Shown here one piece after another: positions 23,122-25,384 of a stretch of DNA of 49,664 bases (its first letter is position 1; each line of letters begins with the position of its first letter). The notes below the pieces were generated by a model. It worked only from the letters and a program-made list of their open reading frames with translations, searched no databases and was not told the origin of the DNA. Source of the DNA: a bacterium. Lineage in GTDB: Bacteria > Armatimonadota > Zipacnadia > Zipacnadales > UBA11051. Position numbers and translations under genes: made by a program. The DNA lies in assembly GCA_021372615.1 (NCBI GenBank), contig JAJFUB010000067.1, positions 1 to 49,664 on the forward strand, read 5' to 3'.

Positions 23122-23158
23122 GTTGCCGTTTGTGTTCCCCCTCCCTTCAGGGAGGGGG
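23122..23158 (+). repeat. Left inverted repeat (37 nt) of the DUF559 cassette
   Basis: GTTGCCGTT, three variable bases, GTT, then the palindrome CCCCCTCCCTTCAGGGAGGG plus GG (23137-23158). It matches the reverse complement of 25348-25384 at 34 of 37 positions. It is followed by a piece of the repeat unit (GGGGGTAGGCCGCCGTT, 23161-23177) just before the nuclease gene. Confidence 0.8.
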
Positions 23159-23194
23159 TAGGGGGTAGGCCGCCGTTACCAGGGGGAGAGCCAG

Positions 23195-23596
23195 ATGACC
23201 AACCGCGACGGCATCGTCACGGGTGACCATGCCGCGCGCAAGCGGGTGCAGGCGCGGCACCTGCGTCAGAACATGACGCCGGCGGAGAGCGGGCTCTGGC
23301 AGAGCCTGCGAGCCAGCCGTCTCGGCGGCCACCACTTCCGTCGTCAGCAGATCATTGACGGCTACATCGTGGACTTCTACTGCCACGCCGCCGGACTGGT
23401 GATCGAGGTGGACGGCGATGTGCACGGCTTCCAGCGCGAGGAGGACACAGTACGGCAGCAGGTCCTGGAGCGTCGGGGGTTGCAGGTGCTGCGCTACACA
23501 AACCGCGACCTCGCCGGCGATCTCCGCTACATACTGGATCAGATTTTGGGCATCGCCGATCGCCGCCTCGAAGAGCAAGAGCGGGCGAATGAGTAA
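23195..23596 (+). CDS. DUF559 endonuclease-domain protein (Vsr-like fold)
   Basis: A 133-residue protein, AGGGGGAG upstream of the ATG. Family hallmarks are all present: LRQNMTPAESGLWQSLR (about residues 23-39), FRRQQIIDGYIVDFYC (48-63), LVIEVDGDVH (68-77) and VLRYTNRDL (98-106). Asp60, Glu71, Asp73 and His77 are the probable metal/catalytic residues of the Vsr/PD-(D/E)XK-related fold. The size is normal for the family. It lies inside a cassette of palindromic repeats: a partial unit just before the start and four tandem units beginning on the base after its stop codon. The nuclease fold is known for the family; its in vivo role is not established, and a role in moving or maintaining the repeats is my inference. 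Confidence 0.9.
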   Translation: MTNRDGIVTGDHAARKRVQARHLRQNMTPAESGLWQSLRASRLGGHHFRRQQIIDGYIVDFYCHAAGLVIEVDGDVHGFQREEDTVRQQVLERRGLQVLRYTNRDLAGDLRYILDQILGIADRRLEEQERANE

Positions 23597-24030
23597 CCCC
23601 TCCCTTCAGGGAGGGGTCGCGCCGGAGGCGCGGGGGTAGGCCGCCGTTTGGGTGGCGGGTGGTTGAGGAGGTACGGGGACGGGCGCACGGCTTCCTACCC
23701 CCTGCCCCCTCCCTGTAGGGAGGGGTCGCGCCGGAGGCGCGGGGGTAGGCCGCCGTTTGGGTGGCGGGTGGTTGAGGTGGTAGGGAGGAGGAGGGACGGC
23801 CTCCTACCCCCTCCCCCCTCCCTGAAGGGAGGGGTCGCGCCGCAGGCGCGGGGGTAGGCTGCCGTTGGGGCGGCGGGTGGTTGAGAAGGTACGGGGACGG
23901 CGGCACGGCTTCCTACCCCCTACCCCCTCCCTGTAGGGAGGGGTCGCGCCGGAGGCGCGGGGGTAGGCCGCCGTCTGGGGTTGCGGATGGTTGAGGAGGT
24001 ACGGGGACGGGCGCACGGCTTCCTACCCCC
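23597..24030 (+). repeat. Four tandem units of about 109 bp, each headed by a 20-bp palindrome
   Basis: Units start at 23597, 23706, 23815 and 23924, exactly 109 bp apart. Each begins CCCCTCCCT-N2-AGGGAGGGG (centres TC, GT, GA, GT), then a small stem GCGCC-GGA-GGCGC (GCA loop in unit 3), then GGGGGTAGG, a diverging middle, and CCTACCCCC, which can pair with GGGGGTAGG. Together with the IS110 leader this fills the 662 bp between the DUF559 stop and the transposase start. There is no open frame of its own: 109 is not a multiple of three. It is not a CRISPR, since the whole unit is conserved and no spacers exist. Confidence 0.9.
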
Positions 24031-24059
24031 TTGTATATTGGAACCGGGGCACTTTGACA

Positions 24060-24240
24060 GAGTCAGACATCTTGCTCGGGCGGCGCTCCGACGGGAGTGG
24101 TGCGCGGTAGGCCGTCTTTGACCCCTGGAGGCTCGACCTCGTGGGGCAGCTGGGTCGCCGCGCACCGCCCGAGCCATTTCCGTTGAGCCTGTACAGTTGC
24201 CTGAGGGCCGTCGCGGCACCTCGTATCTCACAAGGCCAGG
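24060..24240 (+). ncRNA. Probable IS110 bridge RNA in the left-end non-coding region
   Basis: The 227-bp leader folds. GCTCGGGC (24074-24081) plus GGTGCGCGG (24099-24107) pair with CCGCGCACC (24158-24166) plus GCCCGAGC (24167-24174), with a small CTCC/GGAG hairpin in the left arm. The enclosed loop has GACCCCT (24120-24126) and GGGGCAG (24143-24149); the latter is the exact complement of CT-GCCCC of the insertion site. A second loop has TACAGTTGC (24192-24200), identical to the right end plus core, and ACAAG (24230-24234), the complement of core plus left end (CTTGT). This matches the two-loop, two-guide-pair plan known for IS621. RNA limits are approximate. Confidence 0.75.
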
Positions 24241-24258
24241 CCAACCCGGAGCCATCCT

Positions 24259-25203
24259 ATGTCCTATCAGGTGTTCGTCGGTATCGATGTCAGCAAAGCT
24301 TCTTTGGATGTCGCGGTCCTGCCGGGTTCACGGCGCACGCGCGTGGGCAATGACGAGTCCGGCTGGCGCGAGTTGATCGCGTGGCTGGGCGCGCCAGCGG
24401 ACACGCTGGTGGTGCTCGAGGCCACCGGCGGCTATCAAAATGCCGCCGCCCTGGCGCTGCAGGAGGCCGGCTTCGCCGTGGTCGTGATGAACCCGCGCCC
24501 GATCCGCGACCACGCGCGGTCGAACAACGTGCTGGCCAAAACCGACCGGTTGGACGCGGCGGTCATCGCCGACTTTGCTCGCGAGAAACAGCCGCCGGTA
24601 CGGCCGTTGCCCGACGCGCAAGCTCGCTTGCTGGGGGCGCTGATGGACCGGCGCCGGCAGTTGGTGCAGATGCTCGCAGTCGAGAAGAACCGCTTGCAGC
24701 AGGCCCCACCGGCCCTCGCCCGTGACATCACGCAGCATATCCAGTGGCTGAATAAGCGGCTCAAGCAACTGGATCGCGATCTGGATGACCGGATCCGTCA
24801 GAGTCCGCTGTGGCACGAGCGCGACCAGATTCTGCGGTCCGCGCCCGGGATTGGCCCGGCGGTCTCGCACACCCTGTTGGTCGAGTTGCCGGAGTTGGGG
24901 CAACTGAAGGCCAAGCAGATCTCCGCCCTGGTGGGGGTGGCACCGTTGAACCGCGATAGCGGCAAGTTCCGCGGACACCGGTCGATCTGGGGCGGCCGCT
25001 CTCAGGTGCGCTCGATGCTGTACATGGCGGTGGTGTCGGCGGTCCGCCATAACCCGGTCATCCGCACTTTCTACCAGCGTCTGAAGCGGGCAGGCAAGAC
25101 GAGCAAAGTGGCGCTGGTGGCGTGCATGCACAAGCTGCTGATCATCCTGAACGCGATGCTCAAGCAGCGGCAGTACTGGGCGCCACGGGCTGTGCCGGGT
25201 TAG
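24259..25203 (+). CDS. IS110-family transposase (RuvC-like DEDD recombinase)
   Basis: A 314-residue protein, apparently intact. The N-terminal RuvC-like domain has GIDVSK (Asp10), LEATGGYQ (Glu54) and KTDRLDA (Asp96, Asp99), the DEDD metal set. A helical linker spans about 110-190. The C-terminal Tnp_IS116/IS110/IS902 domain starts at [15 protein letters not shown] (about 192) and contains [17 protein letters not shown], the region of the nucleophilic serine (Ser234 by position, tentative), then [20 protein letters not shown] lies 9 bases before the ATG. The long structured leader upstream, rather than downstream, places it in the IS110 rather than the IS1111 group. The enzyme would use the bridge RNA for target choice. 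Confidence 0.95.
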
Positions 25204-25218
25204 GCCTCAACCCAGCGC

Positions 25219-25264
25219 CCCGCCCGCCTGCAGGCCCCTCCATCGCGGACAGAAGGCGGGCGGG
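25219..25264 (+). terminator. 11-bp hairpin in the right non-coding end of the IS110 element
   Basis: CCCGCCCGCCT (25219-25229) pairs with AGGCGGGCGGG (25254-25264) over a 24-base loop, 16 bases after the transposase stop. A weak terminator or an RNA-stabilising hairpin; no T-run follows. Confidence 0.45.
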
Positions 25265-25347
25265 ACGCGGAGCTAGCCGAGAGGCGGCGGCCGCGACAAA
25301 CTACCAAAGAGCACGCACAACAAGCTTGACTCGCAATACAGTTGCTG

Positions 25348-25384
25348 CCCCCTCCCTGAAGGGAGGGGGAACGACAACGGCAAC
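25348..25384 (-). repeat. Right inverted repeat (37 nt) of the DUF559 cassette
   Basis: Palindrome CCCCCTCCCTGAAGGGAGGG plus GG (25348-25369) then AAC-GAC-AACGGCAAC, the inverse of the left repeat at 23122-23158 (34 of 37 positions). It is also the fifth palindrome of the array if the IS110 is removed, and it ends 4 bases before the xerD start codon. Confidence 0.8.

Follow-up and report, generated by a model that had tools for sequence, protein, structure and literature searches.

A DUF559 nuclease gene and its cognate BoxC/triplex-motif repeats as a candidate small mobile element

Catalogues of BoxC, PIT and intrastrand triplex motifs (TMs) go back to the 1990s. The single strands of TMs adopt stable triplex structures in vitro, and no promoter or terminator activity has been reported for these motifs (Holder 2015, PMC4666352). 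Holder et al. "never found" mobility functions near the E. coli TMECO sites and saw no flanking-gene pattern; DUF559 and endonucleases go unmentioned in that study (PMC4666352). The DUF559 loci described here resemble those of RAYT and REP-REPIN, in which a single gene is flanked by palindromes, often inverted, near its stop codon, each gene has a cognate version of the repeat with which it co-diverges, and further copies are dispersed between genes, often as inverted pairs (Nunvar 2010, PMC2817692). Among DUF559 proteins, YcjD yields a profile that picks up Vsr with E 1e-5 (PMC1189080), and VsrA of Caulobacter, a DUF559 protein that causes DNA damage, is a proposed mismatch nuclease (PMC12907096). 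Our literature search, outside which lay most subscription papers and bioRxiv, found no link between DUF559 and repeats, palindromes, BoxC or the intrastrand triplex.

The locus under study lies in the window, by which we mean the whole 49,664-nucleotide stretch of DNA analyzed, contig C67 of a genome bin of 6.4 Mb in 171 contigs. The prepilin-type neighbors and the relatives suggest Armatimonadota as the phylum. The features of the locus are as follows.

23122..23177, + strand: left repeat unit, forming the left arm, with leader GTTGCCGTTTGTGTTC, hairpin CCCCTCCCTTCAGGGAGGGG (23138-23157), G-rich third block GGGGGTAGG and end tag CCGCCGTT; leader, hairpin and tag recur in most of about 50 genome copies
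23195..23596, + strand: DUF559 gene, 133 aa, nuclease of the PD-(D/E)XK / Vsr-EDxHD fold, with conserved E31, D60, E71, D73 and H77
23597..24031, + strand: tandem repeat units with hairpins at 23597, 23706, 23815 and 23924, period 109-110
24015-24031, + strand: first half of a fifth unit, closing the tandem array
24032..25346, + strand: IS110-family insertion (transposase 24259-25203) within the fifth unit, between CCTACCCCCT and GCCCCCTCCC
25347..25385, - strand: second half of the fifth unit plus leader, hairpin 25349-25368, forming the right arm

The DUF559 open reading frame (ORF) matched the Pfam profile PF04480 (112 bits, E 1.5e-32), with a match below the cutoff to a related nuclease family and to no other families. 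A palindromic unit lies about 40 bp 5′ of the gene, and the first of four tandem units begins at 23597, the base after the TAA stop codon, with spacings of 109, 109 and 110. The first-pass annotation of this DNA had described these four units, a later IS110 within the cassette, and enclosing inverted repeats at 23122-23158 and 25348-25384 with 34 of 37 positions identical. All three were confirmed, the repeats as arms of 41 nt (23121-23161 and 25345-25385) that are 90% complementary and enclose the whole block. The palindrome CCCCTCCCTNNAGGGAGGGG has six exact sites in the window, and eight if up to three mismatches are allowed, versus 0.08 expected by chance.

The core palindrome occurs at 87 sites in the genome, versus none for the reversed pattern used as a control. 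When about 50 genome copies were aligned in one register, a common unit emerged around the hairpin CCCCTCCCTTCAGGGAGGGG, in the order leader (...GCCGTTGCCGTTC), hairpin, short spacer, third block GGGGGTAGG and tag ACGCCGTT. Its usual 5′ leader, GTTGCCGTTC, is also found on many solitary copies elsewhere in the genome. The inverted arms of the window are two ordinary genome-wide units in opposite orientation, each with the usual leader, and the right arm comes from the fifth unit, halved by the IS110, of which it is the inner hairpin. The first-pass annotation had taken the inverted repeats for special transposon ends; we rejected terminal repeats peculiar to this cassette, since many solitary copies elsewhere share leader and unit. 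The right arm stops 4 bp short of the start codon of a xerC/D-like gene. Among the xerC loci of ten relatives, none offered a clean empty site for the cassette; the neighbors differ, with the GH123 gene and xerC not lying side by side at these orthologous loci. The TM hairpin pair was absent from the six xerC loci scanned. One relative with an internal stop was left out of the analysis.

For each of five other genome copies of the window IS110, one end could be read, and the junction there matches, with CCTCACCCCT directly before the IS or GCCCCTCTCCC directly after it. The window IS110 therefore aims at the repeat, and sits, as do its other copies, at one exact repeat point, like IS110 elements that insert in REP-like repeats. 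It came to the repeat later and is not what moves it.

A C-rich arm, a loop, a G-rich arm, a short spacer and a G-rich third block make up the repeat, which reads CCCCTCCCTTCAGGGAGGGG-GTA-GGGGGTAGG in the window. This is the architecture of BoxC/PIT/TM, which the repeat also resembles in its intergenic placement and inverted pairs (PMC4666352). It departs from the E. coli BoxC consensus, CCCTCNCCCN3-6GGGNGAGGGN3GGGNGAGGG, in having CCCCTCCCT arms. Judged by its sequence, the window repeat is a different version of the same architecture.

E. coli K-12 has a DUF559 gene of its own, ycjD (PF04480, 167 bits). TMECO no. 9 of Holder et al. (1,351,204-1,351,239) sits between ycjD and fabI, and the copy that we found beside ycjD is identical to it. 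A degenerate second TM copy overlaps the 3′ end of ycjD in K-12; in strain S1-SRB-02-B that copy is intact. Strains of E. coli lacking ycjD were ruled out as clean empty sites, as the eefRABCD operon occupies the place (PMC12817139). Elsewhere in E. coli, in the hrpB-mrcB interval, an unrelated repeat pair is present in some strains and absent in others.

The association extends well beyond these two loci. The other three DUF559 genes of the window genome also lie amid C/G-rich palindromes, each with its own version, so that all four genes do. We scanned 80 DUF559 loci from Chloroflexi, Cyanobacteria, Bacteroidetes, Proteobacteria, Marinimicrobia, Armatimonadota and others. The density of C-rich hairpins fell from 3.35/kb within 250 bp of the gene to 0.43/kb over the following 250 bp, and was 0.0-0.22/kb at distances above 1 kb. 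We then compared the 68 loci with full flanks, which come from many phyla, with 632 control ORFs from the same contigs; the DUF559 loci had been picked by similarity to the window protein and the gene calls were simple ORFs. A hairpin lay within 400 bp at 54 of 68 DUF559 loci versus 40 of 632 controls (odds ratio, 57; p ~1e-41), and on both sides at 28 versus 4. Left and right flanks had an exact repeat of at least 12 nt in common at 39% of DUF559 loci versus 4% of control ORFs. The C-rich hairpin measure and the shared-repeat measure set DUF559 apart from controls; a sequence-blind measure, the longest exact stem, separated them only weakly.

In Armatimonadota, 36 of 46 DUF559 loci were positive by the strict hairpin measure, and 7 of the 10 that it missed have such repeats on inspection by eye. 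All six additional loci from a plasmid collection had repeats (Sinorhizobium, Deinococcus, two from Azospirillum, Sphingomonas and Photobacterium). The DUF559 gene of Neisseria gonorrhoeae, which is apparently ngo0050 of PDB 3hrl, is followed by three tandem units. DUF559 genes are free-standing and intergenic, with unrelated neighbors, and no intron, intein or fixed cleaved target gene lies alongside. Some plasmid-borne DUF559 genes adjoin methyltransferase or BREX-type genes.

Gene and repeat are also matched to each other. Where a genome holds several DUF559 genes, the left and right flanks of a gene resembled each other best at 31 of 40 loci, and flank similarity was higher within than between DUF559 copies (medians, 34 versus 11; p = 3e-12). 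The more alike two paralogues were as proteins, the more alike were their repeats (rho, 0.45; within-genome permutation p = 0.004). Paralogues in one genome are mostly diverged (median identity, 48%), and recent transposition bursts are therefore not seen. One repeat version in the window genome is confined to its own locus, and the version of the window has tens of copies. We concluded that, across many bacterial phyla, DUF559 genes remain linked to repeat versions of their own.

Among Armatimonadota, the median number of repeats per Mb was 4.69 in the 53 genomes with a strong DUF559 match versus 0.38 in the 54 without (p = 1.6e-6), a load about 12-fold higher; this is a rough measure, because one fixed repeat pattern was counted and other versions were missed, genomes were partly incomplete, and species are not independent. 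At least 10 copies were present in 37 of 53 DUF559-bearing genomes versus 15 of 54 DUF559-free ones (odds ratio, 6), and the direction was kept in 8 of the 10 families having both states. Repeat-rich genomes without a detected DUF559 gene exist (G079 with 223 repeats, G117 with 95), as do reverse cases.

Comparison of related genomes at two sites bears on mobility. Nostoc FACHB-110 (L076, 9778-10342) and Nostoc 106C (L067, 9778-10342) have a common block of 565 bp, 91% identical, that consists of a repeat pair, the DUF559 gene and a repeat, and its genomic place differs between the two. L067, L068, L069 and L077 match the flanks of the L076 site at 88-92%, and the orthologous site is free of DUF559 in all four genomes. 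The right end of the block is the downstream TM, and the left end lies about 25-60 bp outside the outer TM. The receiving site is a diverged intergenic region in which L069 and L077 have a repeat pair but no DUF559 gene, so the gene could also have been moved there by recombination between repeats. In Sphingomonas parapaucimobilis, the pntAA-pntAB interval holds a DUF559 gene; in three relatives (Sinorhizobium, Aminobacter and Sphingobium), the two pnt genes overlap. The DUF559 gene has TCCTCCCCGAAACGGGGAGGGGGACC at one end and the inverted partner of that repeat, GGTCCCCCTCCCCGTGCCGGGGAGGA, at the other, a pair of 26 bp whose second member forms the end of the ORF. Terminal inverted repeats thus stand at the ends of the insertion in the pnt operon, and the ends of the Nostoc block lie at or near TMs; the orthologous empty sites in Nostocaceae and Sphingomonas are too diverged for any target-site duplication to be read. 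We concluded that the TM-gene-TM unit has arrived at genome sites, or shifted from one to another, as a single block with its ends at TMs.

These comparisons were among the checks proposed by the first-pass annotation, which had read the cassette as a nuclease-driven repeat-spreading element. It had named beforehand two outcomes that would speak against it, repeats lying off insertion boundaries and DUF559 genes elsewhere lacking such repeats. Neither occurred: DUF559 genes are repeat-flanked far above controls, and repeats coincide with the ends of inserted units in Nostocaceae and in the Sphingomonas pnt operon. Its interpretation as a whole is partly supported.

The AlphaFold2 model of the window DUF559 protein (pLDDT, 84; pTM, 0.79) has its closest solved structure in PDB 3hrl (Foldseek E 2.6e-7; profile E 5e-33). 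The next match is the EDxHD homing endonuclease I-Bth0305I, PDB 3r3p (Foldseek E 1.6e-3; profile E 2.5e-4). By its fold and its acidic active-site residues, which are conserved, the protein belongs to the PD-(D/E)XK / Vsr-EDxHD class. No variation was seen at E31, D60, E71 and R50-Q51, and D73 and H77 are at least 90% conserved; the site therefore looks active. The first-pass annotation had noted a kinship with Vsr-type nucleases; the fold match to Vsr itself was weak (1vsr, E 0.19). We know of no strand-transfer activity of DUF559 proteins alone. Matches to defense systems in PADLOC were marginal only, and we set them aside.

We think it probable that the DUF559 gene and its cognate TM repeats form a small mobile element, TM-nuclease gene-TM, whose nuclease acts on the TMs. 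Its chief rival is passive shuffling, in which the repeats arise otherwise, homologous recombination between them moves the DUF559 genes caught in between, and the nuclease has an unrelated role in mismatch repair or defense. The Nostoc gene did arrive where relatives have a repeat pair without a gene, and both the methyltransferase or BREX-type neighbors of some plasmid genes and the closest functional study, which sees a DUF559 protein as a mismatch-repair nuclease akin to Vsr (PMC12907096), would suit such a passenger. However, a gene captured by generic repeats would be expected to have the common version beside it, and DUF559 copies in one genome instead bear different versions that diverge along with the protein, one of which, in the window genome, is present solely at its gene. 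Control ORFs on the same contigs are nearly free of the hairpin association, and the Sphingomonas gene stands together with its two end repeats in an operon that relatives have intact. Passive shuffling runs counter to the locus-specific versions and the co-divergence, and we regard it as unlikely.

Movement of the repeats by another enzyme, such as RAYT/Y1 or another transposase, as with classical REPs, has some appeal, since RAYT genes of other bacteria are flanked by REPs (PMC2817692) and the window genome has seven Y1_Tnp (PF01797) genes. Yet such a hairpin was found in the locus of none of these seven genes, versus all four DUF559 genes. RAYT was accordingly rejected as the mover of the window repeats, and we give this explanation very little weight. 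Slightly less improbable, but still doubtful in the extreme, is that the repeats are cis elements of the DUF559 gene (terminators, or regulatory hairpins or triplexes) and that the protein stabilizes or processes non-B DNA and is not a spreader. Repeats can abut the stop codon, as at 23597 in the window, and TM single strands form stable triplexes, but the lack of reported promoter or terminator activity (PMC4666352) speaks against such a role, which would also leave dispersed copies, inverted paired units, locus-specific versions and moved blocks unexplained.

For the TM-nuclease gene-TM element, we infer that the nuclease itself drives movement or spread of the unit. The DUF559 protein, as an endonuclease of Vsr/EDxHD fold, would recognize paired TMs in an extruded hairpin, cruciform or triplex form and would nick or cut there. 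Host repair might then copy the whole unit, or just the TM pair, into new intergenic sites, where copied pairs would remain as dispersed REPIN-like repeats. Such a mode would be homing-nuclease-like and repair-dependent, unlike Y1 strand transfer.

The analogy with RAYT/REP that the first-pass annotation had drawn, with a different enzyme, holds in anatomy, in the matching of repeat and gene, and in co-divergence. The palindromes are flanking, inverted, cognate and dispersed, the exception being the one version found at a single locus. Unlike RAYT, a Y1 (HUH) transposase, the enzyme is a PD-(D/E)XK / Vsr-EDxHD nuclease, and the Y1 genes of the window genome lie away from the repeats. The repeat also differs from REPs in that it spans many phyla, has a third G-rich block and lacks the GT(A/G)G head: directly before the palindrome, units in the window genome start with a leader (...GTTC) or an outer C-rich block. 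With EDxHD homing endonucleases such as I-Bth0305I, DUF559 proteins share the catalytic-domain fold, profile similarity and the logic of a selfish nuclease, but they have no intron, intein, fixed target gene or long DNA-binding extension, and they have flanking repeats of their own. The Vsr mismatch nickase and VsrA of Caulobacter belong to a related superfamily (PMC12907096), with the weak fold match given above.

To our knowledge, a mobile unit with a Vsr-fold nuclease as its only gene fits no known enzyme class of transposable element. On balance, and with a little more reserve than for the element itself, we favor a class of mobile element that has such a Vsr/EDxHD-fold nuclease as its only gene, TM ends and non-autonomous repeat-pair progeny, that is the source of the BoxC/PIT/TM repeats of E. 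coli and more than 260 bacterial genomes, and that is convergent with RAYT/REPIN. If this is true, BoxC/PIT/TM repeats would gain an origin, DUF559, present even in E. coli K-12 as ycjD, would gain a function, and one more enzyme class would join the short list of those able to spread DNA repeats.

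The IS110-family element that splits one repeat unit of the block around the DUF559 gene lies at a single exact position of the repeat. It and two further palindromes of the window are as follows.

24032-25346, IS110-family element, inserted in the repeat
48446-48465, related palindrome, 3 mismatches, near the window end
48536-48555, related palindrome, 3 mismatches, near the window end

Some IS110 elements use REPs as their target. Five further IS110 copies (L277-L281) had the matching junction, either CCTCACCCCT running into the element or the element running into GCCCCTCTCCC, with one end readable per copy. 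We conclude that the target of the window's element is repeat-specific. The two palindromes near the window end are spaced 90 bp apart; the only DUF559 match in the window is at 23195-23596, with none other to accompany this pair.

At two loci, L239 (genome G092) and L250 (G155), DUF559 genes lie between longer, MITE-like composite elements of ~125-240 bp, in inverted or direct copies. Because these longer copies bracket DUF559, they suggest that the repeat pairs there sit within composite units. On cyanobacterial plasmids (L225, L226 and L228), the neighbors of DUF559 are BREX/PglX, DUF1156, DUF499 or toxin-antitoxin-type genes, and two of the three loci have a hairpin resembling the triplex motif (TM) within or adjoining the gene. 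Three Armatimonadota genomes (G079, G117 and G006) carry 95 to 223 repeats each, with DUF559 not detected; they are candidates either for loss of DUF559 once the repeats had spread or for a different driver.

In the hrpB-mrcB interval of E. coli, comparison of L221, L222 and L223 with L220 shows that an inverted TM pair is missing from some strains (~102 bp), and strain ZF8-1 retains a single palindrome of the pair. Where the pair is missing, the sequence at the join is altered by a few bases, a difference that helps in reading the arrival or departure of the TM pair.
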